NCBI RefSeq assembly: GCF_900188005.1
Contig: NZ_FZNR01000001.1
Span: 248,001 to 312,000, forward strand
DNA: 64,000 nt
Source: Actinoplanes regularis
GTDB taxonomy: Bacteria; Actinomycetota; Actinomycetes; Mycobacteriales; Micromonosporaceae
Direction of reading: 5' to 3'
Shown here: piece after piece, positions 40,754 through 64,000 of the stretch
How positions within the stretch are numbered: the first letter of the stretch is position 1
Layout: the number at the start of each line of letters is the position of its first letter
Made by a program: the position numbers and the translations under genes
Notes under the pieces: model-generated
What the model saw: only the letters and a program-made list of their open reading frames with translations
Told to the model about the DNA's origin: nothing
Database searches by the model: none

Positions 40754-40787
40754 GGCGCCATGGTGCCCGCTCGCCGCTCGATTGTCG

Positions 40788-40803
40788 GTAGTGCCAGCAC
40801 TAC
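40788..40803. promoter_or_regulatory. 16-bp palindrome in the kinase/desaturase divergent promoter
   Basis: GTAGTGCCAGCACTAC: two perfect 7-bp arms around CA, 34 bp from the kinase start and 81 bp from the desaturase start. Size and symmetry suit a NarL-type response regulator dimer. Confidence 0.5.
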
Positions 40804-40884
40804 TCCCGATACGGGGGTGGAGCGGACCCGGATTCGGGTGTTGGCACTCCTGACCCGGTACCGCTGAGCGACAAGTCTTGCGGC

Positions 40885-41895
40885 ATGACGACGACGACGG
40901 AGCGGCCACGCGCCGCGGGAAGTGACTTCGCCGAGCTCAACCGACGGATCAACGCGGCCGGCCTGTTGCGCCGCCGGCCGGGCTACTACGCCGTACGCCT
41001 GAGTCTGGTGGCTCTCGCCCTGATCGGCGGTTGGACGGCATTCTTCCTGGTCGGCGCGTCCTGGTGGACGCTGGCCGTGGCGGTCTTCCTGGCCGTGGTC
41101 AGCGCCCAGGTGGCGCTGGTCGCGCACGATCTGGCGCACCGGCAGGTGTTCCGCACCAACAAGCCCAGCGCGCGGGCCGGACTGATCGCCGGCAACCTGG
41201 CGATCGGGATGTCCTACGGCTACTGGATGGACAAGCACACCAAGCACCACGCCAACCCGAACCACGACGACCTCGACCCGGACGTCGGGCCGGGCGTGCT
41301 GATCTGGTCCCGGGAGGCGGCCCAGGGCAAGGGCTTCCTGACCCGGCACCAGGCCTGGTTCTTCTTTCCGCTGCTCACCCTGCTCGGGATCTCGCTGAAA
41401 CGAGACAGCGTCCGGGCGCTGCGCAACGGCACGGTCAAGCGACCCGGCGCGGAGTGGGCGCTGCTCGGCGCGCATCTCATCGGGTACGCCGCGGCGCTGC
41501 TGCTGGTGCTCACCCCGGGGCAGGCGCTCGCCTTCCTGGTGGTGCACCAGGCGCTGTTCGGGGTCTATCTGGGGATGACGTTCGCGCCCAATCACAAGGG
41601 CATGCCACATCCCGACGGGACCGGTGACTTCCTGCGCAAGCAGGTGCTGACCTCGCGGAACGTGCGCGGCGGGTGGCTCACCGACGTGGCACTGGGCGGT
41701 CTGAACTATCAGATCGAGCATCACCTGTTCCCGGCGATGCCGACGCCCAACCTGCGGAAGGCCCAGCCGATCGTGCGGGATTACTGCGCGGAGATCGGGA
41801 TTCCCTACGAGATGACCGGGCTGGTCGGGTCGTACCGGCAGGCGTTGCGCCATCTGCACGAGGTCGGCGCCGACCTGCGCGGGCAGAGAGGCTGA
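40885..41895 (+). CDS. Membrane fatty acid desaturase
   Basis: 336 residues. The three His boxes of membrane di-iron desaturases are present: HDLAH near 88, HTKHH near 118, and QIEHH near 279, with four hydrophobic segments between and around them. QIEHH with Q as first residue is typical of acyl-lipid or front-end-type and actinobacterial acyl desaturases. It introduces a double bond into membrane acyl chains using O2. The divergent two-component system may control it. Confidence 0.92.
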   Translation: MTTTTERPRAAGSDFAELNRRINAAGLLRRRPGYYAVRLSLVALALIGGWTAFFLVGASWWTLAVAVFLAVVSAQVALVAHDLAHRQVFRTNKPSARAGLIAGNLAIGMSYGYWMDKHTKHHANPNHDDLDPDVGPGVLIWSREAAQGKGFLTRHQAWFFFPLLTLLGISLKRDSVRALRNGTVKRPGAEWALLGAHLIGYAAALLLVLTPGQALAFLVVHQALFGVYLGMTFAPNHKGMPHPDGTGDFLRKQVLTSRNVRGGWLTDVALGGLNYQIEHHLFPAMPTPNLRKAQPIVRDYCAEIGIPYEMTGLVGSYRQALRHLHEVGADLRGQRG

Positions 41896-42083: not shown

Positions 42084-42503
42084 TCAGCCGAGACCGATGT
42101 TGTTGTGCGCGCTCACCGGGGCGAACCGCCGGTTGCCGAGCCAGACCGCGTCGTAGCCGTTGACCAGCAGGTTCGCCAGCGAGACGGGCGGCGGGACCGG
42201 GCCGTTCTTGCACTCCGCCCAGCCACCGAAGTCGGTGGTCGCCTCACACATCGGGAAGCGCTCACCGGTGGTGGTGAACTGGATCGGCAGGCCGGCCACC
42301 GGGTGGCCGTCCCAGGTCGTGAAGTGGGCCTTGAGCCCGAGCGTCTCACGGGCGATGACGTCGAGCGTGCCGTAGTACGCGGTCGCGTTCATGCGGATGG
42401 GGGGAAAAACGGGTTCCGACGGGGCCGCCTGAGCGGGGCTGGCAGTGGCAATACCGGCCAGCGCCATGGCCGCAGCAAGCCACCGCATAGTCGTGTGCTT
42501 CAT
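42084..42503 (-). CDS. Small secreted protein with an Ig-like fold
   Basis: 139 residues from ATG 42503; the longer frame is rejected. A signal peptide ends at AQA near residue 26. The mature part reads like a bacterial Ig-like repeat (LKAHFTTWDGHPVAGLPIQF, then two Cys about 12 residues apart in CEATTDFGGWAEC), so a single beta-sandwich closed by a disulfide is likely. No enzymatic motif. Function unknown; possibly binding at the cell surface. Confidence 0.75.
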   Translation of the reverse strand: MKHTTMRWLAAAMALAGIATASPAQAAPSEPVFPPIRMNATAYYGTLDVIARETLGLKAHFTTWDGHPVAGLPIQFTTTGERFPMCEATTDFGGWAECKNGPVPPPVSLANLLVNGYDAVWLGNRRFAPVSAHNNIGLG

Positions 42504-42859
42504 GGCGCACAAAACTAGGCGAAGCGGGCGTTTTTCCCAAATCGACACACTTTCGAGGGACGAACATCCCTCCGACCTGCACGGAACAACGGCCCGACCA
42601 CCCACCCGCGACACGCTAATGACGCGAAGGAGTGACTCGGAGTAAAAGATCACAGGAGGTGGCGCAAGGATGTTCTAGGTTTTGACAGAAGTAGCCACAG
42701 GTCTCGTGGAAACGCCGTGACACCTTGCGTGCAAATGCCTCGTCGTGCGTTAGCCTCTGCTCACGAAGCGCATCTGCCGACGATCATCCATCGGCTTTGC
42801 CCGCGCTTTCCCGGCCGCTTTCCGGCGGACCTTCAGGCTCGCAAGCATGGGGAACATCA
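42504..42859 (+). promoter_or_regulatory. 356-bp leader and promoter region of the PKS/oxoamine synthase operon
   Basis: This stretch is distinctly more AT-rich than the coding DNA around it. It contains TTGACA (near 42682) without a convincing -10 partner, and a strong AGGAGGTG (near 42653) followed at 42670 by ATG-TTC-TAG, a two-codon frame. The long open frame that reaches back to 42725 is not needed, since a good TTG start exists at 42860. No family riboswitch is recognised. Confidence 0.4.
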
Positions 42860-45800
42860 TTGGACATTGCCATCGTCGGCCTATCCTGCCGTTTTCCGGG
42901 GGCGCGCGACGTGGTCGAGTTCTGGGCGAACTCGCTGGCCGCCGCTCATCAATTCCGGCCCGTACCGTCGACTCGCTGGAATCACGAAACTTTCTATTCA
43001 AAAAATTTTCGTGACACCTATTCCACGTACACTGACCAGGTGGCCTTTCTCGACGAGGTCGAGAAATTCGCCGCTCTGCACCACCGCATCCCGCCGCGGC
43101 GCGCGAAAGCCATGGATCCGCAGCACCGGCTCCTCATCGACCTGGCCCGCGAGGCGGTTCAGGACGCGGGCTGGGAACGGCGCCCGTTCGACCGGGCGAC
43201 CACCGGCGTCTTCGTCGGGCTGGGCGGTGCCGACTACCGGGAGATGACCGGCGCCCGGATCACCGCCAGCCTGCTGGCCAACGGGTCACTGTCGCCGGAT
43301 GCCGTCGACCCCCAACTGTTGGACGCCATCGCGGAGGCGGCGGCCGTGTCGCTCGATCCGCCACAGTCGTTCTCGATGGCCGGGGCGCTGCTCAACATGG
43401 CGCCGTGCGCCGTCAGTGAGCTGCTCGACCTGGGCGGCCCGTCGTTCGCCGTGGACGCGGCCTGCTCGTCCGCGCTGGTGGCGATGCACGAGGCGGTCAA
43501 TCACCTGCGCACCGGCTCGTGCAGCGCGGCCCTGGTCGGTGGCGTGTTCCTGAACCTCACCCCGAACGCGCTGATCGGCTTCTCCCGGGTGGGCGCGCTG
43601 TCGCCGACCGGGCTCTGCCGGCCGTTCGACTCCCGGGCCGACGGTTTCGTGCTCGGCGAGGGCGGGTCGCTGGCCGTGCTCCGGCCGCTGGACGACGCCC
43701 TGGAGGCCGGTGACCGGATCTACGCGGTGCTCAACGGGATCGGCACCGCCAACGACGGCAAGGGCGCCGGGCCGATGACCCCACGCGCGGAGGGCCAGGA
43801 GGCGGCGATGCGGGCCGCGTACCGGGACGCACGGGTGGAACCGGGCGCGATCGACTTCCTGGAGGCGCACGGCACCGGCACCACGGTCGGCGACCGGGTT
43901 GAGCTCGAGGCGATCCGCCGGTTGCGCGCCAAGTCCGCGGATCGGCACTGCTACCTCTCGTCGGGCAAGGCGAGCATCGGGCACACCCTGCCCGCGGCCG
44001 GTGCCGCGGGAGTGCTGCGGACCGCGCTGGCCCTGCACCACCGGACCGTCCCGCCGCAGCCGGCCACGATGGACCCGCACACCGAGTTGCCGCTGGCCGA
44101 GGCGGGACTCGCGATCGCCACCGAGCCCACGCCGTGGGCACCGCCGGCCGACGACCGGCGGCGTGCCGGGGTGAGCTCGTTCGGCTTCGGCGGTACGAAC
44201 GTGCACGCGGTGCTCAGCGAGGCGCCGGCACCGGAGGCGGAGGACGAGGACGCCGGCGGGGAACGGCCGTGGGTGGTGCTGCTCTCGGCGGACGACGGGG
44301 AGCTGCTCACGTCGTACGCGGAACGGCTCTCCGGTCTGGTCGCCGACGACCCGACGCTGACCCCCGCCGCCGTGTCCCGCACGATGGCCAGCCGCACGCT
44401 GCTCCCCGCCCGTCTCGCGGTGATGTGCCGGACCCGGGCCGAGCTGGCCGACCGCCTCGCCGCCGCGGCGCGGTCGCTGGCCGCCGGCGCCACCGGCCGT
44501 CTGGCCGCGGGCCTGTACGCCGGCACCGCCCCGCTCGCGCCCGAGCACCGCTCGCTGGCCTTCCTCTACCCGGGCCAGGGTTCACTGCGGCCCGGTCTGC
44601 TGCGCGACCTGGTCGCCCGGTTCCCGGCGCTGGCCGGTCATGTCCGGCCGCTCGCCGACCGGGTCGACGAGCGCACCGGCGCACCGGTCACCAGCCTGCT
44701 CTGCGACACGCCCGGCGAGGACGACGACGAGAAGGTCAGCGCGACCGCGATCTGCCAGCCCGGCCTCGGTGTGGCCGGGATCGGGATGACCCAGCTGCTC
44801 ACCGACCTCGGGGTGACCCCGCAGGTGGCGCTCGGGCACAGCGTCGGCGAGCTGGCGGCGGCGGTCGCGGCCGGCGCGCTGACCCCGGACGACGGCATCG
44901 AGTTCCTGATCGAGCGCGGCGCGGCCGTCACCTCCGGTGGGGAGCCGGAGCCGGGCACGATGGCCGCGGTCCGGATCGACGCGGCCGGTTTCGAGCAGCT
45001 GCGCACCGGCATCGAGGGGGTCTGGGCGGGCTGCTACAACCACCCGACCCAGGTAGTCGCGAGCGGGCACGAGGACGCGGTCGGCCGGCTCGTCGAGCGG
45101 TGCCGGAACCGGGACGTGCCGGTCGTGCCGCTGCGCGTGTCCCACGCCTTCCATTCGCCGTTGATGTCCGACGTGGACTCCCGGATCGCCGAGCGTGTGG
45201 AACAACTGCCGGTCCGCGAGCCGGTGCACACGCTGGTCTCCAGTGTGGACCCGGCCGCGCCGACCGACCCGGAGACGCTGCGCGCGCTCTGGGCGCGGCA
45301 GGGCTCAGCCCCGGTGCAGTTCCGCGAAGCGGTGGACGTGGCGGTCGAAGCCGGCGCGAAGATCCTGGTCCAGGTTTCGGCCGGGGACGCGCTGCTCGGG
45401 ATGGCCGCGCAGACGCCGTCGGCGCACGGGCTGGAGTCGATCGCGCTGATGCCGTCCGAGCCGGACGGCGGGTACGCGCTGCTGGAGGGGTTGGGCCGGC
45501 TGGCCGTCGCGGGCGTTCCGGTGGATCTCACGCCGCTGTTCGAGGGCCTGGGAGTGCCGCTGGTCACGTTGCCGCCGTCGCCGCTGGCGACGCAGCGCTA
45601 CACGGTCCGGCGTCGGACGCCCGGCGCAGCCCCGGCCCGATTTGTACGTACAAATGAAGCTCGTTCCGCTTGTACCCCAGAAATTCCGGCACGCGAAGCG
45701 CTGCCGGCCCCTGTAACCAGGAACGGAGAGCAGCTTCCGGTGAACGACGTCATCTCTCTGCTTCGGGAGCAACTCGCAGTCCTGCGGGGCATCGGCGTTG

Positions 45801-47470
45801 AGCCGGCCGACACGGCGATCGAGTTCGCCGTCGCGGCACAGCCCGCCGCGGCCGCGAAACCCGAGCCCGCGCCGGCCGCCCCGGCCCGGATCTCCCTGCC
45901 CACCCAGCCCGCCCCGAAGAAGATCGAGGACAACCAGGTCTTCGCCGAGGTCGCGGCGATGGTCGGCAAGATCAGCGCCTACCCGGCCGACACGGTCCGG
46001 GCGGACCAGTCGTTCAGCACCGACCTGGGCTTCGACTCGATCATGACGGCCGAGCTGATCGCGGCGGCCAAGCGCCGCTGGCCGGACCTCGACCTCGCCC
46101 CCGAGCAGATGTTCGGGATCACCACGGTGGGCGAGCTGGCCCGGACGCTGGCGCAGGCCCTGGGCGGCGGAGCCGCGGTGCCCGAAGCGGCTCCGGTCCC
46201 CACACCGGCCCCGGCGCAGGCACAGGCACCGCGGGCGGACACCCGCCGGCCGGAGGTGGCCGACGTGACCAAGCTGCCCGAGGTCGTCCAGTTCGAGGCG
46301 CGCGGCAACATCCTCGAGCGGGTGGGGGTGGCCAACCCGTACTACATCGTGCACGACAGCGTGATCAACAGCCGGACCACGGTGCAGGGCCGCCAGCTGA
46401 TCTCCTTCTCCAGCTACAACTACCTGGGCCTGTCCGGGCACCCGATGGTCAACTACGCGGTGAAGGAGGCGGTGGAGCGGTACGGCTCCTCGGTCTCCGC
46501 CGCCCGGATCCTCTCCGGCAACCGGGGCCTGCACGACGAACTCGACCGCGCCCTGGCCGACCTGGTCGGCGCCGAGGACGCGATCTCGCTGCTCGGCGGG
46601 CACTCCACGAACGTCGGCATCATCGGGCACATGGTCGGCCCGGAGGACCTGATCGTCCACGACGCGCTCGCGCACGACAGCATCCTGCAGGGCTGCCGGC
46701 TCTCCGGGGCCAACCGCCAGCCGTTCCCGCACCAGGACCTGGCCGCACTGGACGCGCTGCTGACCCGGATCCGGGACCGCTACCGCCGGGTGCTGATCAT
46801 CGTCGAGGGCGTCTACAGCATGGACGGCGACATCTGCGACCTGCCGGCCCTGATCGCGCTGAAGAAGAAGCACGGCGCGCTGCTGATGGTCGACGAGGCG
46901 CACAGCATCGGCGTGCTCGGCCCGAACGGCGGCGGTGTCGGCGAGCACTTCGGTGTGGACCGCGGCGACGTCGACATCTGGATGGGCACCCTCTCCAAGT
47001 CCCTCGCGAGCTGCGGCGGGTACATCGCCGGGCGGCACGAGCTGATCGAGTACCTGCGGTACACGCTGCCGGGCTTCATCTTCAGCGCCGGCATGAGCCC
47101 GGCGAACGCGGCCGCGGCGCTGGCCGCGCTGAACATCATCCGTGAGGAGCCGCAGCGCCTGACCGCCCTGCACGACCGGGCGGCCACCTTCCTGCGGCTG
47201 TCCAAGCAGGCCGGGATCGACACCGGGCCCAGCTCGGGCACCCCGGTCATCCCGTGCATCACCGGCGACTCGATGCAGGCCCTCAAGCTGGCCGACGCGC
47301 TGCTCAAGAACGGGGTCAGCGCGAACCCGATCATGTACCCGGCGGTGAAGGAACGGCTGGCCCGGCTGCGGTTCTTCATCACCGCCGAGCACACCATCGA
47401 GGACATCGAGATGACCGTGGATCTGGTGGCCCGGCACCTCGACCCGGCCCGCGTGCCACAGCCGGCCTGA
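42860..47470 (+). CDS. Fused polyketide synthase and alpha-oxoamine synthase (KS-AT-ACP-AONS)
   Basis: 1536 residues from TTG 42860, which has GGGGA 7 nt upstream and starts exactly at the KS motif DIAIVGLSCRFPG. KS: nucleophile Cys202 in DAACSSA, His in EAHGTGT and GHTLPAAG, all intact. AT (about 565-870): Ser661 in GHSVGE and HAFHSP, the malonyl-type signature. ACP: Ser1060 in LGFDSIM. No KR, DH, ER or thioesterase. AONS (about 1150-1530): BioF/serine palmitoyltransferase fold with PLP lysine Lys1380 in GTLSKSLASCGG and MVDEAHSIGVLG. The module would extend an acyl chain with malonyl and release it by decarboxylative condensation with an amino acid, giving an amino ketone. It heads a seven-gene run; the exporter gene starts 15 bp later. 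Confidence 0.93.
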   Translation: MDIAIVGLSCRFPGARDVVEFWANSLAAAHQFRPVPSTRWNHETFYSKNFRDTYSTYTDQVAFLDEVEKFAALHHRIPPRRAKAMDPQHRLLIDLAREAVQDAGWERRPFDRATTGVFVGLGGADYREMTGARITASLLANGSLSPDAVDPQLLDAIAEAAAVSLDPPQSFSMAGALLNMAPCAVSELLDLGGPSFAVDAACSSALVAMHEAVNHLRTGSCSAALVGGVFLNLTPNALIGFSRVGALSPTGLCRPFDSRADGFVLGEGGSLAVLRPLDDALEAGDRIYAVLNGIGTANDGKGAGPMTPRAEGQEAAMRAAYRDARVEPGAIDFLEAHGTGTTVGDRVELEAIRRLRAKSADRHCYLSSGKASIGHTLPAAGAAGVLRTALALHHRTVPPQPATMDPHTELPLAEAGLAIATEPTPWAPPADDRRRAGVSSFGFGGTNVHAVLSEAPAPEAEDEDAGGERPWVVLLSADDGELLTSYAERLSGLVADDPTLTPAAVSRTMASRTLLPARLAVMCRTRAELADRLAAAARSLAAGATGRLAAGLYAGTAPLAPEHRSLAFLYPGQGSLRPGLLRDLVARFPALAGHVRPLADRVDERTGAPVTSLLCDTPGEDDDEKVSATAICQPGLGVAGIGMTQLLTDLGVTPQVALGHSVGELAAAVAAGALTPDDGIEFLIERGAAVTSGGEPEPGTMAAVRIDAAGFEQLRTGIEGVWAGCYNHPTQVVASGHEDAVGRLVERCRNRDVPVVPLRVSHAFHSPLMSDVDSRIAERVEQLPVREPVHTLVSSVDPAAPTDPETLRALWARQGSAPVQFREAVDVAVEAGAKILVQVSAGDALLGMAAQTPSAHGLESIALMPSEPDGGYALLEGLGRLAVAGVPVDLTPLFEGLGVPLVTLPPSPLATQRYTVRRRTPGAAPARFVRTNEARSACTPEIPAREALPAPVTRNGEQLPVNDVISLLREQLAVLRGIGVEPADTAIEFAVAAQPAAAAKPEPAPAAPARISLPTQPAPKKIEDNQVFAEVAAMVGKISAYPADTVRADQSFSTDLGFDSIMTAELIAAAKRRWPDLDLAPEQMFGITTVGELARTLAQALGGGAAVPEAAPVPTPAPAQAQAPRADTRRPEVADVTKLPEVVQFEARGNILERVGVANPYYIVHDSVINSRTTVQGRQLISFSSYNYLGLSGHPMVNYAVKEAVERYGSSVSAARILSGNRGLHDELDRALADLVGAEDAISLLGGHSTNVGIIGHMVGPEDLIVHDALAHDSILQGCRLSGANRQPFPHQDLAALDALLTRIRDRYRRVLIIVEGVYSMDGDICDLPALIALKKKHGALLMVDEAHSIGVLGPNGGGVGEHFGVDRGDVDIWMGTLSKSLASCGGYIAGRHELIEYLRYTLPGFIFSAGMSPANAAAALAALNIIREEPQRLTALHDRAATFLRLSKQAGIDTGPSSGTPVIPCITGDSMQALKLADALLKNGVSANPIMYPAVKERLARLRFFITAEHTIEDIEMTVDLVARHLDPARVPQPA

Positions 47471-47485
47471 GAGCAGCCGCCCGAT

Positions 47486-49708
47486 ATGACCTCTCTGACA
47501 CCGACCCGCCCCCGGACCGGGAGCGACGAACAGCACGTCGCTCCCGGTCCGGTGGTTCGGTTCGTCGCCCGCCGCCCCAAGTTCGTCCTGCTCGTCGCCC
47601 TGCTGCTGGCCGCGCTCGCCGCCGCCTTCAGCGGCGGCGTGGTGGGCGCGTTGAAAGCCGGAGGATTCGACGATCCGGACACCGATTCGGTACGCGCCCG
47701 GCAGGTGCTCACCGAGCACTTCCGCACCGCCGACCCGAACCTGGTGGTGCTGATCTCCAAACCCGGCGGCAGCGTCGACGACCCGGACACCCAGGCCGTG
47801 GCGCAGCAGGTCACCCAGCGGCTCGCCACCACGGCCGGGGTCACCGTGGCCGGTTCCTACTGGGTGAACCGCCTGCCCCAGCTGGCCAGCCGCACCCACG
47901 ACAAGGGCATGGTGCTGGTCCATGTGGACGGTGACGAGGATCAGAGTGCGGACCGGGTGGCCGACCTGCACCACTCGGTCGCGCGGGACGGCCCGATCAG
48001 CGTGTCGTTCGGCGGCATCACCCAGATCAACAACGACATCAACGACCAGGTCACCAAGGACCTGACCACCGCCGAGTCGATCGCCATCCCGATCACCCTG
48101 TTGCTGTTGCTGCTCGTCTTCGGGACGGTCGGCGCCGCCGGTGCGCCGCTGCTGATCGGGCTCTTCTCGATCGTCACCACGCTCGGCACGCTGCGGCTGC
48201 TGGCGGCGATCACCGACGTCTCGGTGTTCTCGGTCAACATGGCCACCGCCCTCGGGCTGGGCCTGGCGGTGGATTACAGCCTGCTGTTCGTCTCGCGGTA
48301 CCGCGAGGAGCGGGCGGTCTGCCCGGACCCGGTGACGGCGCTGGGCAACACCATGCGTACGGCCGGACGGACCATCGTGTTCAGCGCCGCGACCGTGGCC
48401 GTGGCGCTCTGCAGCCTGCTGGTGTTCCCGCAGTACTTCCTGCGCTCGTTCGCCTACGCCGGGATCGCCGTGGTGGTGACCACGGTCGGCGCCGCTCTGC
48501 TGGTGCTGCCCGCCCTGCTCCGGGTGCTCGGGAACCGGATCGACAGATGGGCGCTGTGGAAGCCCGGGACCGAGTCGACGTTCTGGGCCCGGCTGGCGGC
48601 GTTCGTGCTGCGCCGGCCGATCCTGACCGCGACCCCGGTGATCCTGATCCTGATCGGGCTCGCGATCCCTTTCGGGCACGTGCGCTTCGGTCTGGCCGAC
48701 GACCGGGTGCTGCCCAAGGCCGCGGAGAGCCGGGTCGTGGCGGACACCGTCCGCACCGAGTTCACCGACACCGGCAGCGGGGCCACCGTTATCGTCGCCA
48801 GGCACTGGGGCCACGGCACGGACGCGCGGATCCGGGCCGCCGACTACGCCGCCCGGCTCTCCGAGGTGCCCGGCGTGACCCGGGTGGACAGCATGGTCGG
48901 GACGTACCAGCGCGGGGTGATCGTGGTCGCCGCGGGGCACCCCGACGCCCGCTTCGTGAACGGCGACGCGACCTGGTTCTCGGTGGTCAACGAGGCCGAG
49001 CCGTACTCGGACGCCGGTGCCGACCTGGCCCGTGCGATCCGTGCCGTGCCGGTCCCGGCCGAGGTTCCGGTGCTGGTCACCGGGCCGGCGGCGCAACTGG
49101 TGGACACCATCGGCTCGATCGGCGCCCGGCTGCCGCTCGCTGGGATCCTGATCGTGGTCACCACGTTCCTGCTGCTCTTCCTGCTCACCGGCAGTGTGCT
49201 GCTACCGCTGAAGGCGCTGCTGCTGAACCTGCTGACGATGAGCGCGGTGTTCGGCGTGGCGGTCTGGGTCTTCCAGGACGGCAACCTCTCCGAGCTGCTC
49301 AGGCAGACCGGTACACCGCTCGCGGTGGGCATCCCGGTGCTGCTGTTCTGCGTGGCGTTCGGCCTCTCGATGGACTATGAGGTGTTCGTGCTGTCGCGGG
49401 TGATCGAGCGGTACGAGCAGGGCGCGGACCTGCACACCGCGGTCGTCGAGGGGATGTCGCGCAGCGTCCGGGTGATCAGCGCGGCGGCCGGCATCCTGTC
49501 GGTGTCCTTCCTGGCCATGCTCTCGTCCGGGGTGTCGCTGATCCAGTTCTTCGGCCTCTGCGCCAGCCTGGCCATCATCCTGGACACGCTGCTGGTCCGG
49601 CCGGTACTGGTGCCGGCCTTCATGCGGGTGGCCGGGCGGTGGAACTGGTGGGCGCCGCGCCCGCTGCGGGCACTGCACGCCCGGTTGGGGCTGCGGGAGC
49701 ATGGCTGA
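47486..49708 (+). CDS. MMPL/RND family lipid exporter
   Basis: 740 residues. Twelve membrane segments in two repeats, with large outer loops after the first and seventh. The proton-relay Asp-Tyr pairs are LGLAVDYSLLFVSRYREE in the first half and FGLSMDYEVFVLSRVIE in the second, as in mycobacterial MmpL3 and related Streptomyces transporters that move lipids or lipid-like polyketides. It sits directly after the PKS/oxoamine synthase gene and its 3' end overlaps the phosphatidyltransferase gene by 8 bp. The cargo is therefore likely the lipid made by this operon. Confidence 0.9.
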   Translation: MTSLTPTRPRTGSDEQHVAPGPVVRFVARRPKFVLLVALLLAALAAAFSGGVVGALKAGGFDDPDTDSVRARQVLTEHFRTADPNLVVLISKPGGSVDDPDTQAVAQQVTQRLATTAGVTVAGSYWVNRLPQLASRTHDKGMVLVHVDGDEDQSADRVADLHHSVARDGPISVSFGGITQINNDINDQVTKDLTTAESIAIPITLLLLLLVFGTVGAAGAPLLIGLFSIVTTLGTLRLLAAITDVSVFSVNMATALGLGLAVDYSLLFVSRYREERAVCPDPVTALGNTMRTAGRTIVFSAATVAVALCSLLVFPQYFLRSFAYAGIAVVVTTVGAALLVLPALLRVLGNRIDRWALWKPGTESTFWARLAAFVLRRPILTATPVILILIGLAIPFGHVRFGLADDRVLPKAAESRVVADTVRTEFTDTGSGATVIVARHWGHGTDARIRAADYAARLSEVPGVTRVDSMVGTYQRGVIVVAAGHPDARFVNGDATWFSVVNEAEPYSDAGADLARAIRAVPVPAEVPVLVTGPAAQLVDTIGSIGARLPLAGILIVVTTFLLLFLLTGSVLLPLKALLLNLLTMSAVFGVAVWVFQDGNLSELLRQTGTPLAVGIPVLLFCVAFGLSMDYEVFVLSRVIERYEQGADLHTAVVEGMSRSVRVISAAAGILSVSFLAMLSSGVSLIQFFGLCASLAIILDTLLVRPVLVPAFMRVAGRWNWWAPRPLRALHARLGLREHG

Positions 49709-50549
49709 CGGAGCCTGTACCAGCCGGCATCCGGCTTTGCGGGAGATCCGGGAACGTACGTACAAACCGGTCGACGCGTGGTGGACCGTCCTCCTCGTCG
49801 ATCCACTCGCGTCCCGGCTGGTACGCCTGGTAGCGCCGTACCGGTGGCTCACGCCGAACGTGCTGACCCTGATCGCGACGGTGATCGGGGCCGGCGCCAT
49901 GGCCGGTTTCGCCCGCGGCGACCAGCGGGGACTGATCGTCGGAGCGGTCCTGTTCCACCTCAGCTTCGTGGTCGACTGCATGGACGGCAAGATCGCCCGG
50001 CTGAACGGGACCGGCACCGTCTTCGGACAGTGGCTGGACTTCGTTCTCGACCGGGTCCGGGTCTTCTTCTGCGCGCTCACCCTCTTCGGTGGCCAGTACG
50101 CGCGGCACCACGACGTCGCCTACCTCTGGCTGATGTCCGTGGCGATCTTCCTGGACCTGATCCGCTACCTCAACGGCGGCCAGGTGGACAAGGTCCGCCG
50201 AGGGATGGCCGAGGAGCTCGACGCGCTGGGGTTCCCGGTCGAGTCCGGCGACGAGCCACGGTCCCTGACAGGCCGGGCCGGTGCCTGCCTGAGGCGCAAC
50301 CGGATCCGGACCCACCTGTTCAGCGGCATCGAGTACGAGATGTTCGTCTACATCATCGGCCCGCTGACCGGCCTGATCTTCGAGGTGACGATCTTCTCCG
50401 GGGCGGCGCTGCTGCTCTTCGAGTTCGTTCTGATCATCCGGCTGCACCAGGCGACGAAGGCGTTCCCGGCGCGGCTGGCGGCCGCCCGGGCGAGCGTGTC
50501 GCCGGCGGACTCCGAGCCGGTCCCGGTGGCGGCACCCGCCAGCCGGTAG
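49701..50549 (+). CDS. CDP-alcohol phosphatidyltransferase family protein
   Basis: 282 residues starting inside the end of the exporter gene. The catalytic signature DG-x2-AR-x8-G-x3-D-x3-D is complete in DCMDGKIARLNGTGTVFG and following WLDFVLD (about 92-118). Membrane helices surround it. These enzymes transfer a phosphatidyl or other phospho-alcohol group from a CDP-activated donor to an alcohol. The N-terminal 50 residues and a long hydrophilic loop (about 170-215) are unlike housekeeping PgsA or PssA. In this operon it may attach a phospho head group to the product of the PKS/oxoamine synthase. Confidence 0.88.
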   Translation: MADGACTSRHPALREIRERTYKPVDAWWTVLLVDPLASRLVRLVAPYRWLTPNVLTLIATVIGAGAMAGFARGDQRGLIVGAVLFHLSFVVDCMDGKIARLNGTGTVFGQWLDFVLDRVRVFFCALTLFGGQYARHHDVAYLWLMSVAIFLDLIRYLNGGQVDKVRRGMAEELDALGFPVESGDEPRSLTGRAGACLRRNRIRTHLFSGIEYEMFVYIIGPLTGLIFEVTIFSGAALLLFEFVLIIRLHQATKAFPARLAAARASVSPADSEPVPVAAPASR

Positions 50550-50577
50550 CAGACTGACGGGGCCGCTAGGAGGAGCC

Positions 50578-52257
50578 ATGCCCGACACCGAGGCGACCGC
50601 CGGGTTCCGGCGGGCGCGGGACTTCCTGCTCGCCCACCGCGAGAACTACCCCGTCGCGTACGAGGAGTTCGCCTGGCCCCGGCTCGACCGGTTCAACTGG
50701 GCGCTCGACTGGTTCGACGTGATCGCGGCGGGCAACGACGCCCCCGCGCTCTGGATCGTCGAGGAGGACGGCAGCGAGCAGCGCTTCTCGTTCGCCGAGA
50801 TGTCCGAACGCTCCAGTCGGGTCGCCAACTGGCTGCGCGAGCAGGGCGTGCGTCGCGGCGACCGGATCGTGGTGATGCTCGGCAACCAGGTCGAGCTCTG
50901 GGAGACCGTGCTCGCCGGGATCAAGCTGGGCGCGGTGCTGATCCCGGCGACTCCGCTGCTCGGCGCGGCCGACCTGGCGGCCCGGGTGACCCGTGGCGGC
51001 GCCCGGCACGTGATCGCGATAGGTTCTGCGGCCGGCAGGTTCGACCAGGTCGACCCGGCGGTGACCCGGATCGCGGTGGGCCCGGCGCAGGGCTGGCGCG
51101 ACTTCCGCTCGGCGTACCGGGCGAGCGCCGCCTTCAGCCCCGACGGCGTGACCCGGGCCGACGACACCCTGCTGCTCTACTTCACCTCCGGCACCACGGC
51201 ACTGCCGAAGCTGGTCGAGCACACCCACGTGTCGTACCCGGTCGGTCACCTCTCGACCATGTACTGGATCGGCCTGCGCCCCGGCGACGTGCACCTGAAC
51301 ATCTCGTCACCGGGCTGGGCGAAACACGCCTGGAGCAACGTCTTCGCCCCGTGGAACGCGGAGGCCTGCGTCTTCATCCACAACTACACCCGGTTCGACG
51401 CGTCCCGGCTAATGGCCGAGATGCAGCGGGCCGGGGTGACCAGCTTCTGCGCGCCGCCGACGGTCTGGCGGATGCTGATCCAGGCCGACCTGACCGAGCT
51501 GAAGACGCCCCCGCGGGTCGCCGTCGGCGCCGGCGAACCGCTGAACCCCGAGGTGATCGAGCAGGTCAGGGCGAAGTGGGGGGTGATCATCCGGGACGGG
51601 TTCGGGCAGACCGAGACGTCCGTGCAGATCGCCAACACGCCCGGTCAGCCGGTCCGGGCGGGGTCGATGGGGCGTCCGGTGCCGGGCTTCCGGATCGCCC
51701 TGCTCGACCCGGCGACCGGGCGGGAGTCGAGCGAGGGCGAGATCTGCGTCGCGATGGAGCCCCGGCCGGTCGGGCTGATGGTCGGCTACCACGGTGATCC
51801 CGGACTGACCGCCGAGCGGATGGCCGACGGGTACTACCACACCGGCGACGTGGCCTCGCGGGACTCCGACGGCTACATCACGTACGTGGGCCGGACCGAT
51901 GACGTGTTCAAGGCCTCCGACTACCGGATCTCGCCGTTCGAGCTGGAGAGTGTGCTGATCGAGCACGAGGCGGTGGTGGAGGCCGCGGTGGTGCCCTCCC
52001 CCGATCCGGTACGGCTGGCCGTGCCGAAGGCGTACGTGCTGCTCGCCGAGGGCTGGGCGGCGGACGAGGCGACGGCGGCGGCGATCTTCGCGCACGCCCG
52101 GGAGCACATGCCGCCGTACGCGCGGATCCGCCGGCTGGAGTTCACCGACCTGCCCAAGACCATCTCCGGCAAGATCCGCCGGGTCGAGTTGCGCGCCGCC
52201 GAGCGGGAGAAACACGCCGACCCGTCGGCCAGACCGGCCGGGGAGTTCACCGGCTGA
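50578..52257 (+). CDS. AMP-forming acyl-CoA synthetase (medium-chain/benzoate-CoA ligase-like)
   Basis: 559 residues with a strong GGAGGAG before ATG 50578. P-loop YFTSGTTALPKLVEH, A5 motif GFGQTET, A7 YHTGDVASRDSDG, and catalytic Lys in LPKTISGKIRR near the C-terminus. The overall sequence is closest to the ACSM/benzoate-CoA ligase group. It activates a carboxylic acid with ATP and CoA. Its place in the operon suggests it supplies the starter acyl-CoA for the KS or an acyl group for a later step. Confidence 0.9.
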   Translation: MPDTEATAGFRRARDFLLAHRENYPVAYEEFAWPRLDRFNWALDWFDVIAAGNDAPALWIVEEDGSEQRFSFAEMSERSSRVANWLREQGVRRGDRIVVMLGNQVELWETVLAGIKLGAVLIPATPLLGAADLAARVTRGGARHVIAIGSAAGRFDQVDPAVTRIAVGPAQGWRDFRSAYRASAAFSPDGVTRADDTLLLYFTSGTTALPKLVEHTHVSYPVGHLSTMYWIGLRPGDVHLNISSPGWAKHAWSNVFAPWNAEACVFIHNYTRFDASRLMAEMQRAGVTSFCAPPTVWRMLIQADLTELKTPPRVAVGAGEPLNPEVIEQVRAKWGVIIRDGFGQTETSVQIANTPGQPVRAGSMGRPVPGFRIALLDPATGRESSEGEICVAMEPRPVGLMVGYHGDPGLTAERMADGYYHTGDVASRDSDGYITYVGRTDDVFKASDYRISPFELESVLIEHEAVVEAAVVPSPDPVRLAVPKAYVLLAEGWAADEATAAAIFAHAREHMPPYARIRRLEFTDLPKTISGKIRRVELRAAEREKHADPSARPAGEFTG

Positions 52258-52290
52258 TCATGCACTCGGTGCACGGGCTATCTTTGCCCG

Positions 52291-54081
52291 ATGCTGCGAC
52301 GACGCTGGTTGTACCTGGTTGCAGTCGTTGCGATGTTGGGGCAGATGGCGTTCGCCATGGTGACCACAGCGGTGCAGCTGACGCCGACGATCGACGAGCC
52401 GGTGTACCTGGCGACCGCCGAGGTGTACACGCAACAGCACAGCCTGAGGTACAACCCGGAGCATCCACCGCTCGGCAAGCTGATCATGGCGGCGGGGCTG
52501 GCGTTCGAGGACGTGGGTGAGCTGGATCCGGCGTACCCGGGAAGTCAGTCCGCGCTCGGGCGGCATCTGCTCTACGAGAGCGGGAACAATCCGTTCCGAC
52601 TGCTGCTCGCGGCCCGGATGCCGATCATCCTGCTCACGCTGCTGTTCGGGCTGGTGGTCCTGGCGTTCGCGCGGGACGTGGCCGGGCCGGTGGGCGGGCT
52701 GATCGCGCTGGCGCTCTACTCGTTCTCGCCGGACGTGATCGCGCACGGATCGCTGGCCACGCTCGACGTTCCGGCGGCGGGGCTGCTGTTCACGGCGTTC
52801 TGGCTGGTGTGGCGGGGGCGGAACCGGCCGTACCGCTATCTTCCGCTGGCTGGGCTGGCCCTCGGCGCGGCGCTGGCGACCCGGGCGAGCGCGCTTCCCG
52901 CCGTACCGCTGCTGGTTCTGCTCGCCGCCCTCTCCATGTGGCACGCGCAGCGGGCCCGCGAACCTCAGCCACCCACCGCCTCCGAGCCCGCCGACAACCC
53001 CCCGCTGGAGAAGACGACGGAGGAGGGCACTGCCGGCGCCCCGCCGAAGGAGACGGCGGAAGGGGGCACGGCCGGCGCCCTGCCGAAGGAGATGACGGAG
53101 GAGGGTACGACCGACGCCCCGCCGAAGGAGACGACGGTGCGAAGCGCGACGACGAAGCGGCTGCTCAGCAGCGCGGCCGCCGCGGTCGGCACCGGACTCA
53201 TCGCGGTCGCCGTCGTCTGGATCGTCTACCTGGCCGTGGACCCGCACCTGCGCTGGACCACCCCGGTGGGTCTGCCGCACCCGGGCGGGCTGAAGGGCCT
53301 GGCCGTCGACTGGCTGCCGTTCCCCCAGGCCTACCGGGACGGGCTGCTGATGCAGTTCAAGCTGGAGCTGCGCACCTACAACGGCTTCCTGCTGGGGCAC
53401 GGCTACAAGGGCCACCTGTGGTTCTATCTGCCGGCCGCCCTGGTGATCAAGACTCCGCTGGGGATGCTGGCGCTCTGGGCGGCCGGGGCGCTCACCATGA
53501 TTTTCATTCCCCGGCTCCGGGTGGCCGCACTCTACGTGCTGCCGGTCTCCGCGGTGCTGCTGCTGGTCGCGATGACGGGCTCCCGTTCGTACGGCACCCG
53601 GTATGCGATCTTCCTGCCGCTCTTCCTCGCCGTCGCGGCCGGCACCGTCGCGCTGGTCCGGATCCGCTGGGCCCGGGTGACGACCGCGCTGCTCGTCCTC
53701 TTCGTCGCGGTCAGTTCGCTGCGGACGTTCCCGTACTACCTGCCGTACTCGAACGAGGCTTTCGGCGGCACCGCCGACACCCACCTCAACCTGCACGACT
53801 CCAACGTCGACTGGGGTCAGGACCTGGCCCGGCTCGCGCAGAAGCTGAAGACGGACTATCCGGGTGAGCAGACCTGGCTGATCTACAAGGGCAGCGGTGT
53901 GCCGGCGTACTACGGCATCGACGCGGCCGACCCATACACGGTCCCGGTGGACCAGGTCCACGGCATCCTCGTCATCTCCGACTCGCGGGTCGCGCTGGCC
54001 AGCGCCCGGCTGAAGCAGCTGCTCACCGGCGCTACCCCGATCGGCCAGGTTGGATATTCCATGACGATCTACCGTCGCTGA
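52291..54081 (+). CDS. GT-C glycosyltransferase (GT39/PMT-like) membrane protein
   Basis: 596 residues with about ten membrane helices. The first outer loop has the catalytic-type Asp-Glu in PTIDEPVYLATAEVY and HPPLGKL, as in PMT-like and ArnT-like enzymes that use polyprenyl-phosphate sugars. Between helices (residues about 225-290) lies a hydrophilic insertion with a 13-residue repeat. It would add a sugar on the outer face of the membrane. It follows the ligase gene by 33 bp, so a glycosylated product of the operon is possible, but a general protein or wall acceptor cannot be excluded. Confidence 0.82.
   Translation: MLRRRWLYLVAVVAMLGQMAFAMVTTAVQLTPTIDEPVYLATAEVYTQQHSLRYNPEHPPLGKLIMAAGLAFEDVGELDPAYPGSQSALGRHLLYESGNNPFRLLLAARMPIILLTLLFGLVVLAFARDVAGPVGGLIALALYSFSPDVIAHGSLATLDVPAAGLLFTAFWLVWRGRNRPYRYLPLAGLALGAALATRASALPAVPLLVLLAALSMWHAQRAREPQPPTASEPADNPPLEKTTEEGTAGAPPKETAEGGTAGALPKEMTEEGTTDAPPKETTVRSATTKRLLSSAAAAVGTGLIAVAVVWIVYLAVDPHLRWTTPVGLPHPGGLKGLAVDWLPFPQAYRDGLLMQFKLELRTYNGFLLGHGYKGHLWFYLPAALVIKTPLGMLALWAAGALTMIFIPRLRVAALYVLPVSAVLLLVAMTGSRSYGTRYAIFLPLFLAVAAGTVALVRIRWARVTTALLVLFVAVSSLRTFPYYLPYSNEAFGGTADTHLNLHDSNVDWGQDLARLAQKLKTDYPGEQTWLIYKGSGVPAYYGIDAADPYTVPVDQVHGILVISDSRVALASARLKQLLTGATPIGQVGYSMTIYRR
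53014..53130 (+). repeat. 39-bp coding repeat, three diverged copies, inside the glycosyltransferase
   Basis: Units at 53014, 53053 and 53092 encode TTEEGTAGAPPKE, TAEGGTAGALPKE and MTEEGTTDAPPKE, a charged insertion between membrane helices that typical GT-C proteins lack. Confidence 0.85.
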
Positions 54082-54125
54082 AACCGGGTCTAGCGGTTAC
54101 TGGCGGGTAATGCTTAGGTGATGCG

Positions 54126-55760
54126 ATGATGGACTACGACATCGTGATCGTGGGCAGCGGTTTCGGCGGCAGCGTCAGCGCACTGCGCCTGGCGGAGAAG
54201 GGTTACCGGGTCGGGGTGCTCGAGGCCGGCCGCCGCTTCACCCCCGAGACGCTGCCGAAGACGTCGTGGGACCTGCGGAACTTCCTCTGGGCGCCGAAGC
54301 TCGGCATGCGCGGCATCCAGCGGATCACCCTGCTCAAGGACATCATGGTGCTCTCCGCGGCGGGTGTCGGCGGCGGTTCGCTGGTCTACGCGAACACGCT
54401 CTACCAGCCGCCCGCCCCGTTCTTCGCCGATCCGCGCTGGGCCGGCATCACCGACTGGGCGCACGAGCTGGCACCGCACTACGACCAGGCGTCCCGGATG
54501 CTCGGCGTGACCGAGCAACCGACGATGACACCCTCCGATGTGGTGATCAAGCAGGTCGCCGAGGACATGGGGGTCGGGCACACGTTCCGGCGTACGCCGG
54601 TCGGGGTGTTCTTCGGCGAGCCGGGCAAGACCGTGCCCGATCCCTACTTCGGCGGCGCCGGACCGGAACGGACCGGCTGCGTCGAGTGCGGCAACTGCAT
54701 GATCGGCTGCACGCTCGGCGCGAAGAACCGGCTCGACGTCAACTACCTCTATCTCGCGGAGCGCAAAGGCGCCACCGTGCACCCGGACACCGAGGTCACC
54801 GCGGTCCGGCCGGACGGCGACGGCTGGCGGGTGGAGACCCGCAACGGCACGTTCACCGCCGGCCAGGTGATCCTCTCGGCCGGCGCGCTCGGCACCCAAC
54901 GGCTGCTGCACGCGATGCGGGACACCGGGGTGCTGCCCGGGCTCTCCGCTCGGCTCGGCTCGCTGACCAGGACGAACTCCGAGGCGTTGCTCGGCGCGGA
55001 GACCAAGCAGGTGCCCGCCGCGCCGTTCAGCCAGGGGGTGGCGATCACCTCGTCGTTCCACCCGGACCCGAACACCCACATCGAGCCGGTCCGTTACGGC
55101 CCCGGCAGCAACGCCATGGGCCTGCTCTCCACGCTGCTGGTGGACGGTGGTGGCCGGGTGCCGCGCCCGCTCAAGTTCCTCTGGCAGTGCCTGCGGCACC
55201 CGCTCGTGCTGGCTTATTCGCTCTCGGCCCGGCGGTGGAGCGACCGGACGATCATCGCCCTGGTCATGCAGACCCTGGACAACTCGCTGACGGTACGCCG
55301 CACCCGGCGCGGCCGGTTGACCACCAGCCCGGGGCACGGCGACCCGAACCCGACCTGGATCCCGGTCGGGCACGAGGCCGTCCGCCGGATCGCCGACCGG
55401 ATCGACGGATTCCCCGGTGGCACCGTCGGGGACATCTTCAACATCCCGATGACCGCGCACATCCTGGGCGGCGCCACGATCGGCGCGGACGCGAGCAGCG
55501 GCGTGGTGGACGCGTACCACCGGGTCTTCGGCCATCCGGGACTGCACGTGGTGGACGGCTCCGCGGTGCTGGCCAATCTCGGGGTGAACCCGTCGCTGAC
55601 CATCACCGCCCTCGCGGAGCGCGCCATCTCGCTCTGGCCGAACCGGGGCGAGACGGACCCCCGGCCGCCGCTCGGCGCGGAGTATCAGCGGGTCCAACCG
55701 GTCGCGCCGCACTCGCCGGCGGTGCCCGCGCACGCTCCGGCGGCCCTGCGCCAACGGTGA
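54126..55760 (+). CDS. GMC-type oxidoreductase (cholesterol-oxidase-like)
   Basis: 544 residues. N-terminal FAD motif VIVGSGFGGSVSALRLAEKG, then AAGVGGGSLVYANT, and a C-terminal HVVDGSAVLANLGVNPSLTI typical of GMC flavoenzymes. It resembles the mycobacterial ChoD branch, including a Cys-rich CVECGNCMIGC (about 178-188) that this branch shares and that could hold a metal. Family members oxidise alcohols to ketones. It is the last gene of the run, 44 bp after the glycosyltransferase gene, so it may oxidise a hydroxyl of the operon product. No signal peptide. Confidence 0.88.
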   Translation: MMDYDIVIVGSGFGGSVSALRLAEKGYRVGVLEAGRRFTPETLPKTSWDLRNFLWAPKLGMRGIQRITLLKDIMVLSAAGVGGGSLVYANTLYQPPAPFFADPRWAGITDWAHELAPHYDQASRMLGVTEQPTMTPSDVVIKQVAEDMGVGHTFRRTPVGVFFGEPGKTVPDPYFGGAGPERTGCVECGNCMIGCTLGAKNRLDVNYLYLAERKGATVHPDTEVTAVRPDGDGWRVETRNGTFTAGQVILSAGALGTQRLLHAMRDTGVLPGLSARLGSLTRTNSEALLGAETKQVPAAPFSQGVAITSSFHPDPNTHIEPVRYGPGSNAMGLLSTLLVDGGGRVPRPLKFLWQCLRHPLVLAYSLSARRWSDRTIIALVMQTLDNSLTVRRTRRGRLTTSPGHGDPNPTWIPVGHEAVRRIADRIDGFPGGTVGDIFNIPMTAHILGGATIGADASSGVVDAYHRVFGHPGLHVVDGSAVLANLGVNPSLTITALAERAISLWPNRGETDPRPPLGAEYQRVQPVAPHSPAVPAHAPAALRQR

Positions 55761-56154
55761 GCTGAGGTCCCCCAGCGGCCGCCCGGGTGTCAGAACCCGG
55801 ACAGCCGGCGGTTGGGGCGAGCCACCCCGGCACCGGAGAATCGGCGACGAGGCGGCTCGAGTCAGTGAGCACTGCTCAGCGGCGGCGCGAGGAGCTGGGA
55901 GCGCTCCCACCTGTGACGTTACCGCACATTCACAGGTTCGAAAAGAGGTAGCGGCAAGCCTTTCCCACCAGCGACCACCACCCTCCGCTGCCGGGCGGAT
56001 GCGCAGCGGAATTGCGACATGCCAAGGAGGCAATTTGCAATTAGTGCCATGTGCGCGACACAATGAATGAGACGACGACTATTCGCGGCACGCACCCCCC
56101 TTCGCTCGCGTACAGCCGTCACCCAAATGACATCGCTGTAGGAGCGAACACCAC
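55761..56154 (+). promoter_or_regulatory. 394-bp upstream region of lsr2
   Basis: No gene. The last 180 bp are AT-richer than the surroundings (CAATTTGCAATTAG near 56030), as expected for a promoter and for a gene product that binds AT-rich DNA and often controls itself. A weak CCGGGT/ACCCGG hairpin near 55786-55803 may end the upstream operon. Confidence 0.4.
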
Positions 56155-56502
56155 ATGGCCAAGCAGATAATTACCCTTCTGACCGACGACCTCGACGGCG
56201 GCGAGGCCGACCGCACCGTCGAATTCGGACTCGACGGCGTGAACTACACGATCGACCTGTCCGAGAAGAACGCCGGCAAGCTGCGCAAGGCTCTGGAACC
56301 GTTCCTCACCGCGGCCACCCGGCTGGGCCGTTCCGGCGCCACTCAGGCGGTTGCCCGGCGGGCCACGCCGGCCGCCACCAGCCGGTCCAGCCGTGACCAG
56401 AATCAGGCCATTCGGGAGTGGGCGAACAAGAACGGCTACCCCGTTTCCGAGCGCGGCCGGATCCCGAGCAACGTCGTCGAGGCGTACCACGCCAAGCGCT
56501 AG
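56155..56502 (+). CDS. lsr2: Lsr2 nucleoid-associated protein
   Basis: 115 residues, the normal length. The N-terminal dimerisation domain begins [20 protein letters not shown] and the C-terminal DNA-binding domain contains IREWANKNG and the AT-hook-like RGR in [14 protein letters not shown]. Lsr2 is the actinobacterial counterpart of H-NS: it coats AT-rich, often acquired DNA and silences it, including secondary-metabolite clusters. It lies just after the PKS/oxoamine operon. A textbook terminator follows. Many actinobacteria have two Lsr2 proteins, so this may be either paralogue. Confidence 0.95.
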
Positions 56503-56519
56503 TCGGACCGTCTGTTGTA

Positions 56520-56555
56520 AACGGCGCCACCGGGTCACCCGGTGGCGCCGTTTTT
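56520..56555 (+). terminator. Rho-independent terminator of lsr2
   Basis: A 15-bp perfect inverted repeat (56520-56534 with 56538-56552, AACGGCGCCACCGGG and its complement) with a TCA loop, followed by TTTTT. Confidence 0.95.
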
Positions 56556-57087
56556 CGTAAGAAAAGCCTGGTCACGCCGGTGCGGCGGCTGACGCCGTTC
56601 CAGCGATGACCAAAGTCAATCAGAGCCCGCCGACGGCCGATACCAGCGGATTTCCGCCGATCAGGCCGGGGAACGACCGAGCCGCCATGATCGGAGAACA
56701 TCGGCTCGGGGGACAATTCGCCGGACCGGAGTAGGGCGGTTCGACCGCCGACTCCGGCGCGCCCGGAATGCCCGGCGCGGCGCGGCGGGAACCTTCCGGG
56801 GACGCCGATCCGCCGGACCGGCTAATTCGTGGTCATGGTCGCGGAACGGGCGCGGGCACCGGTCGTACCGGAAAGGTCGTGCTGATCGCCGGGGAAAACG
56901 GCGCCGGGCCGTTCCGGAAACCATGACGCCGGGCCGGTACCGATACGGCCTGTCGTTCCTTCCCTGTGAAGCCCGGCGGAAACCGATGGTCCGCCGGGTA
57001 CCAATCCCATCGCCTGAGAAAACCGGGGACACGATGAATGGTCCCGGGAAACAGATTCGATCACGGCCGGTGGGGTACGCCTCCGAC
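56556..57087. other. 532-bp non-coding region between lsr2 and the epimerase gene
   Basis: Frames here are short or shadow-like. The DNA is rich in CCGG and CGGAA words (for example CCGGTACCGATACGG near 56934) without a clear repeat period. No RNA gene or riboswitch is recognised; promoter elements of the epimerase gene are presumably here. Confidence 0.5.
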
Positions 57088-63741: not shown

Positions 63742-64000
63742 GGTGCGCACTCCACGATCACGTCCAGGGCCCGGGCGAAGTCCGCTTCGGGCACGCCCGC
63801 GTTGACGGTCAGCCGCAGGCGCGAGCTGCCGTCCGGGGTCGAGGGTGGCCGGAAACAGCCGACCGCCACGCCACGATCCCGGCAGTCGGCGGCCCAGGCG
63901 ACCGCGGCCTCGGGGCCCGGGGCGGGCACCGAGAGCACTCCGGCGGCCGGATCGACGACCGGGTATCCCGCCGCGCGCAGCCGCGCGGCGATCCGGGCAC
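63738..64000 (-). CDS. bioF: 8-amino-7-oxononanoate synthase, C-terminal end (5' part beyond window)
   Basis: The visible 87 residues end a BioF-like PLP enzyme: AGVLSVPAPGPEAAVAWA, GVAVGCFRPPSTPDGSSRLR and LTVNAGVPEADFARALDVI match the small domain of BioF, including the FRPPSTP motif. The stop overlaps bioD, which confirms the biotin operon. The enzyme condenses pimeloyl thioester with alanine. The start is outside the window. Confidence 0.88.
   Translation of the reverse strand, partial: ARIAARLRAAGYPVVDPAAGVLSVPAPGPEAAVAWAADCRDRGVAVGCFRPPSTPDGSSRLRLTVNAGVPEADFARALDVIVECAP

Follow-up and report, generated by a model that had tools for sequence, protein, structure and literature searches.

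A non-reducing polyketide synthase-oxoamine synthase of Actinoplanes and its MMPL partner: a candidate cassette for an exported amino-lipid

Several described enzymes couple a polyketide synthase (PKS) to a pyridoxal phosphate (PLP)-dependent alpha-oxoamine synthase (OAS). According to the accessible part of the report, PfSgaAB gives rise to the PKS-derived sphingolipids of Pseudomonas fluorescens MYb115, with PfSgaB condensing an acyl-CoA with L-serine and SgaC acting as the presumed ketoreductase (PMC12134224). The undecylprodiginine enzyme RedL, in the portions of the papers available, turns a beta-ketomyristoyl thioester and glycine into 4-keto-2-undecylpyrroline, the substrate of RedK (PMC11188435, PMC12654105), and excerpts of a further paper have PigH making a hydroxypyrrole from a pyrrolyl beta-ketothioester and serine (PMC6667630). 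The available sections of a 2013 survey of PLP type I domains in PKS and nonribosomal peptide synthetases place AOS-type (oxoamine synthase) domains after carrier proteins, as in an A-CP-KS-AT-PLP2 protein of Streptomyces griseoviridis, and note, in S. violaceusniger, an atypical ketoacyl synthase of 1136 residues that carries a PLP domain (PMC3870968). Coupling of a PKS to an MMPL transporter has a precedent in the MmpL7-PpsE pair, as given in the accessible text (PMC1238737). Here we analyse a 64,000-nucleotide stretch of the 10.0 Mb genome of Actinoplanes regularis (G000:C39:248001-312000), referred to as a whole as the window, which carries the gene of a synthase with ketosynthase (KS), acyltransferase (AT), acyl carrier protein (ACP) and OAS domains on one chain, followed by an MMPL gene and preceded by a divergent gene for a small secreted protein. 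The balance of the evidence leans towards these three genes forming a cassette that makes and exports an amino-lipid by a 3-hydroxypyrrole/pyrrolinone route. Its features, in window coordinates, are:

42084..42503, minus strand: small secreted protein of 139 aa, divergent from the PKS gene, third member of the cassette
42725..47470, plus strand: PKS-oxoamine synthase, KS-AT-ACP-OAS, called from its open reading frame (ORF), Pfam and catalytic residues; the true start may lie near 42860 (TTG)
42863..44371, plus strand: KS domain (Pfam, residues 47-549), with Cys, His and His present
44561..45466, plus strand: AT domain (Pfam, residues 613-914), with GHSVG and HAFH motifs
45947..46150, plus strand: ACP domain (Pfam, residues 1075-1142), with LGFDS
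46394..47419, plus strand: PLP-dependent alpha-oxoamine synthase domain of the SPT/AONS/KBL family (Pfam, residues 1224-1565)
47486..49708, plus strand: MMPL transporter (Pfam), of a lineage linked to PKS-OAS

Scored against the motifs that we take to be catalytic in the KS, AT, ACP and OAS domains, the window synthase kept the KS Cys, His and His, the AT Ser and HAFH motif, the ACP Ser and the PLP-binding Lys; HAFH is presumably the mark of a malonyl-type AT. In an alignment of 15 synthases the KS, ACP and PLP residues were conserved throughout and HAFH varied in some. The best PDB matches of the OAS domain were the AONS/KBL entries 8s1y and 7poa, followed by the SPT entry 3a2b. Some KS-OAS synthases had no AT match, namely L127, L128 and L131 (by Pfam, and the three without an AT among the 15 aligned) and L129, L130, L306 and L307 (by tblastn); they fall into two separate KS clades and may need an acyltransferase from outside.

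Neither a ketoreductase (KR) nor a dehydratase (DH) was found in the window synthase, by Pfam or by tblastn with the KR and DH of a deltaproteobacterial relative. The same held for all 40 actinobacterial PKS-OAS entries by tblastn, a search with a single KR query that divergent domains can escape, and for KR by Pfam in the nine actinobacterial synthases scanned. A KR was present in 48 non-actinobacterial entries, half of them with a fused OAS (24) and half with a separate one (24); other non-actinobacterial entries without a KR match include Bacillota, Planctomycetota, cut contigs, L038, L080 and L083. Since the PKS cannot reduce, a long alkyl chain would have to come preformed, and a synthase without ketoreductase would therefore join acyl chain, malonyl unit and amino acid into an amino-dione and not a sphingoid base. 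We infer the starter, the amino acid and the product from sequence. A preformed fatty acyl group would be taken up by the KS, lengthened with malonyl-CoA and kept as a beta-keto thioester, which the OAS would release by decarboxylative condensation with serine or glycine; the 1-amino-2,4-dione so formed could close to an alkyl pyrrolinone or 3-hydroxypyrrole, after the chemistry of RedL and PigH/RedN. The MMPL protein would then carry the amino-lipid across the membrane, and once outside it may be bound or handled by the secreted protein.

The three genes occur together. Among the 67 genomes of the genus set, 17 had a PKS-OAS match at E 1e-90 or better, and one of these (G062, locus L127), encoding a KS-ACP-OAS of another type, was excluded, leaving 16. 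An MMPL match of at least 72% identity was found in the same 16 genomes, the next best anywhere being 48%, and the secreted protein was matched in exactly the 16 with a KS-AT-ACP-OAS (Fisher p 9e-16); these co-occurrence counts, like the gene-order counts given below, are uncorrected for relatedness. The window MMPL has the MMPL domains and paired Asp-Tyr residues of an MMPL/RND transporter, and its closest solved structure is MmpL3. As for the secreted protein, its N-terminus looks like a signal peptide by eye, it has no Pfam family, and its AlphaFold model (8 sequences; mean pLDDT 52.6) was too weak for use.

Beyond the genus, PKS-OAS matches were found in 25 of 354 genomes in a family search and in 21 of 394 in a class-wide draw. 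A strong MMPL match adjoins the PKS-OAS in L123, L299 and L305, is close by in L296 and about 7-9 kb distant in L124-L126. On the Streptomyces anthocyanicus plasmid NZ_CP109229 a 1612-aa PKS-OAS is divergent from an MMPL gene, which is followed by a gene for a protein with a nitroreductase match, and a second plasmid bears a similar OAS. The linked MMPLs represent at least five genera; 18 of 19 fell in a single clade (support 100/99) separate from the unlinked Actinoplanes MMPLs, in a tree that sampled six of the 11 clade A genomes (clade A being defined below), the window included, 14 picked unlinked MMPLs and, for L325, a 449-aa fragment. We consider it quite possible, though less probable than the cassette reading for Actinoplanes itself, that non-reducing actinobacterial PKS-OAS enzymes with a co-inherited MMPL form an undescribed two-gene unit making exported alkyl hydroxypyrrole, pyrrolinone or amino-dione lipids, having reached RedL-like chemistry without descent from prodiginine pathways, and that they move between genera, sometimes on plasmids. 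In other genera (L126:10189-17202, L123:12353-18929, L124, L125 and L301) the PKS-OAS stands with an AMP-ligase/aldehyde-dehydrogenase-like fusion, a thiamine diphosphate enzyme and a free KS; L126 also has a free ACP, and a YqcI/YcgG protein is present in these loci except L301, which had no match. These sets may represent a larger version of the pathway.

The nearest named relatives of the window OAS were Actinoplanes species, with up to 94% identity among the best 80 of 419 relatives, which were those taken forward. In the OAS tree (SH-aLRT support only; L010, L013, L016 and L054, which were short, and seven duplicates omitted, and the first part of the L305 OAS masked in its record), the window lies in an 11-entry clade A (100) within 17 Actinoplanes entries (100), and these nest in an all-actinobacterial set of 30 (88); the actinobacterial L127-L131, L304 and L306-L309 fall outside it. 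The KS tree set the window type apart from a group of SgaA-like, RedL-like and Butyrivibrio sequences together with L302 and L303 (97/96), which come from another family of the same order, and did not settle how it relates to the deltaproteobacterial PKS-OAS with KR and DH (KS identity 42-52%). This tree makes the synthase neither SgaA-type nor RedL-type by KS descent. The SgaA-, SgaB- and RedL-like references were picked out from their layout and gene neighbourhood and not by name: the SgaB-like ones are the Pseudomonas loci L049, L060 and L063, whose match to the published MYb115 genes is assumed, and the RedL-like ones are L308 and L309, chosen for an A-ACP-KS-AT-OAS layout and a RedN-like neighbour. 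A ligase resembling RedH (1006 bits against a cut-off of 1350) marks L309 as well. In L308 (3750-13262) one ORF combines AMP-binding, ACP, KS, AT and OAS with a C-terminal epimerase/3betaHSD-like domain, and may be a RedL fused to a RedK-like reductase, the RedK likeness being our own reading. In Butyrivibrio/Lachnospiraceae (L019, L021, L023, L041, L055, L075) KS and OAS share one long ORF, with an OAS about 51-52% identical to that of the window.

Several observations weigh against an exported pyrrole-type amino-lipid. No starter-activating enzyme is encoded among the cassette genes (in clade A the neighbouring ligase could feed a starter to the PKS), and a ketoreductase encoded outside the cassette could possibly act. 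The secreted protein is known only from Actinoplanes, the search having covered the genus plus the loci fetched elsewhere. Within the stretches examined, some of which end early (L298 and L129 among them) and so limit these negatives, ten of a set of 14 actinobacterial loci (L297, L298, L300-L303, L306-L309) and also L127-L131 had no strong MMPL match; the MMPL matches of L304 were weak (25%), and the L299 MMPL lies outside the linked clade. The RedL-like KS groups with the SgaA-like KS, away from that of the window, and the RedL analogy is therefore one of chemistry and not of descent. Nor does the OAS discriminate, its identity being about equal to SgaB-like (49-51%) and RedL-like (49%) sequences, with fixed-difference columns splitting into 23 SgaB-like, 25 RedL-like and 25 neither.

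One alternative is a sphingoid-like lipid, in which an outside ketoreductase would act on a serine-derived OAS product, the CDP-alcohol transferase would add a phospho head group and the product would be exported. We regard this as improbable, if the strongest of the alternatives. The window OAS is close to half identical to the SgaB-like enzymes of the three Pseudomonas loci, and PfSgaB is stated, in the accessible text, to prefer L-serine virtually exclusively (PMC12134224); query positions 89 (R), 254 (S) and 258 (C) follow the SgaB-like and not the RedL-like sequences, which may be taken as a weak hint of serine, and SPT is among the best PDB matches. However, a KR was found neither in the synthase nor in the cassette, and the CDP-alcohol transferase is not tied to the distribution of the PKS. 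The nearby 3betaHSD-like short-chain dehydrogenase/reductase (SDR; 56923-58140) was matched in a cassette-free genome (L268) and resembled the RedK-like domain only weakly, at 26% identity across 174 aa (E 0.002); it was rejected as a RedK-like reductase for both reasons.

The proposed cassette is flanked by a desaturase gene and by four further plus-strand genes, which bear on whether the whole run acts as one pathway:

40885..41895, plus strand: fatty acid desaturase (Pfam), at the left edge of the insertion site
49701..50549, plus strand: CDP-alcohol phosphatidyltransferase, neighbour outside the cassette; matches in 66 of 67 genus genomes
50578..52257, plus strand: AMP-dependent acyl-CoA synthetase-like ligase, neighbour; matches in 52 of 67
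52291..54081, plus strand: PMT_2-type membrane glycosyltransferase, neighbour; matches in 67 of 67, paralogues included
54126..55760, plus strand: GMC oxidoreductase, cholesterol-oxidase-like, neighbour; matches in 67 of 67

From the synthase onwards the run consists of six plus-strand ORFs, with gaps at the five junctions of 15, -8, 28, 33 and 44 bp. An earlier note on this DNA, made from the letters and ORF translations, had described seven co-directional genes spaced by -8 to 44 bp; the order and spacing stand, and the count becomes six. The families it named agree with Pfam (in order, KS-AT-ACP-Aminotran_1_2, MMPL, CDP-OH_P_transf, AMP-binding, PMT_2 and GMC_oxred). Among the matches listed, none of the six proteins reached an NCBIfam cut-off (for the GMC oxidoreductase, 546 bits against NF058674, cut-off 850). 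That note had also read the whole run as a single pathway and had proposed a neighbourhood check, which went against it: the last four genes, whose matches far outnumber the 16 genomes with a PKS-OAS, are not conserved with the first ones. Because the E-value limits of the genus searches admit paralogues, gene order was compared as well, in 14 cassette-free loci and in the loci of all 16 cassette genomes. A GMC oxidase match of at least 77% identity was present in 64 of the 67 genomes. In seven cassette-free loci (L258-L264) the CDP-alcohol, glycosyltransferase and GMC genes stand in a row; a distance of 132-381 bp separates the desaturase from the CDP-alcohol gene in six of them (L259-L264), and in L258 no desaturase was detected. 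In the other seven (L265-L271) the genes are scattered or in part absent from the stretch examined. The ligase lies outside the row in L258-L264 and adjoins the glycosyltransferase in five of the 14 (L265-L267, L270 and L271). Eleven genomes, the window included, carry the cassette between the desaturase and CDP-alcohol genes, 7.8-8.05 kb apart by start of homology, with all six genes in tandem. In the remaining five it is tens to hundreds of kb off or on another contig; the three downstream genes are still consecutive in G041, G057 and G039, but not in G060 and G023.

These results indicate that the gene order of the run, kept in 11 Actinoplanes genomes, is not due to chance, and that the three cassette members have stayed linked although the cassette changed place at least once. 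Since the downstream genes also occur without PKS-OAS and MMPL, the run is made of two neighbouring units: on one side the cassette of PKS-OAS, MMPL and secreted protein, on the other a set of genes that the genus retains in its absence. The cassette would have landed beside the downstream genes in this clade, where read-through or recruitment may also occur. Recruitment could go as far as one integrated six-gene pathway, in which ligase, CDP-alcohol transferase, glycosyltransferase and oxidase, as older genes, act on the PKS product; this we hold to be quite unlikely. The tandem arrangement in 11 genomes, the 8-bp overlap of the MMPL and CDP-alcohol genes in the window and a ligase match in all 16 PKS genomes against 36 of the other 51 (Fisher p 0.014, relatedness uncorrected) speak for it. 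Yet the downstream genes persist in cassette-free genomes, the cassette lies apart from them in five, the ligase adjoins the glycosyltransferase without a PKS in the five loci named, and in the ten further clade A loci the distance from the MMPL stop to where CDP-alcohol homology begins ranges from 5 to 259 bp, which makes the overlap a feature without conservation. A sphingoid route using all six genes was rejected as the main explanation, given that the last four occur without the PKS. It is very unlikely that the synthase is an iterative non-reducing PKS whose OAS releases a longer poly-beta-ketone as an aromatic or pyranone-like amine instead of a lipid: a single KS-AT-ACP module without reductive domains would suit this, but the MmpL3-like partner suggests a lipid and there is no cyclase-like gene among the three of the cassette.

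Around the cassette (38877-41895 and 49701-58140) the window holds response regulator, sensor kinase, desaturase, CDP-alcohol transferase, ligase, PMT_2 transferase, GMC oxidase, Lsr2 and SDR genes. Several of these hold their order in cassette-free strains. A promoter and terminator scan gave no sigma-70-like promoter and 10 terminator-like sites (3.7 expected), the sole plus-strand one inside the glycosyltransferase gene, with consensus patterns that may not suit this genome. Near the end of the window, a protein that matches AAA_26 (62689-63750), and which we take to be BioD-like, is encoded beside a stand-alone OAS-family gene that crosses the border (G000:C39:311753-312787; 34% identity to the window OAS); together they are perhaps a biotin locus.

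The PKS-oxoamine synthase of the earlier note, expected to join an acyl chain, malonyl units and an amino acid and partnered by an MMPL protein, fits the domains and catalytic residues found here, and no paper found in searches of the open-access literature described this unit; the note's sphingoid-like product is not the likeliest one for a PKS without ketoreductase, and its list lacked the divergent secreted-protein gene, whose distribution is identical to that of the cassette. The same searches, in which absence is not proof, found no report of a PKS-OAS paired with a co-inherited MMPL, none on Actinoplanes with oxoamine synthase and, judged from titles and opening lines of abstracts, no relevant one on Actinoplanes with sphingolipids. 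The findings point to a non-reducing branch of actinobacterial PKS-OAS enzymes linked to an exporter of their own, for which a PKS joined to an SPT-like domain may be a misleading sign of a sphingolipid. The PKS and MMPL, which share one Streptomyces plasmid, form a unit small enough for direct expression and testing.

Compared with mycobacterial MmpL3, the window MMPL keeps both Asp-Tyr pairs but scored 360 bits against the NCBIfam MmpL3 model (cut-off 1400) and so is not assigned as an orthologue; a coupling of PKS and transporter is putative here. The available sections of the 2013 survey describe neither a KS-AT-CP-AOS protein lacking an A domain nor an MMPL partner (PMC3870968). With PigJ/PigH and RedX/RedN (HBM synthase) the window synthase would share an OAS that joins a beta-ketothioester to serine and closes a hydroxypyrrole, as far as the accessible texts describe it (PMC6667630, PMC11188435, PMC3870968); those systems have separate KS and ACP-ACP-OAS proteins, and RedN-like OAS are only 34-37% identical to that of the window. 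SgaAB, like the window synthase, joins a PKS to an SPT/AOS-family OAS, the two OAS being about 50% identical if the SgaB-like enzymes are of the published type. SgaA, however, is a separate iterative PKS whose likely relatives carry KR, whereas the window synthase is not a reducing PKS able to build the chain by itself (no KR/DH by Pfam or tblastn) and its KS lies outside the SgaA lineage (97/96, with the SgaA-like entries assumed to be of the published type); the SgaAB system also has SgaC as presumed KDS reductase, and the accessible text mentions no MMPL (PMC12134224). RedL resembles the window synthase in chemistry, in that acyl chain, malonyl and amino acid would be joined through KS-AT-ACP-OAS without reduction. 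RedL-like proteins differ by an N-terminal AMP-binding domain and ACP, absent from the window synthase, by a KS of another clade and by genes set in prodiginine-like clusters, and no RedK-like reductase was found among the cassette genes. The window synthase is thus best regarded as a variant of the known PKS-oxoamine synthases, whose pairing with an MMPL transporter appears undescribed.

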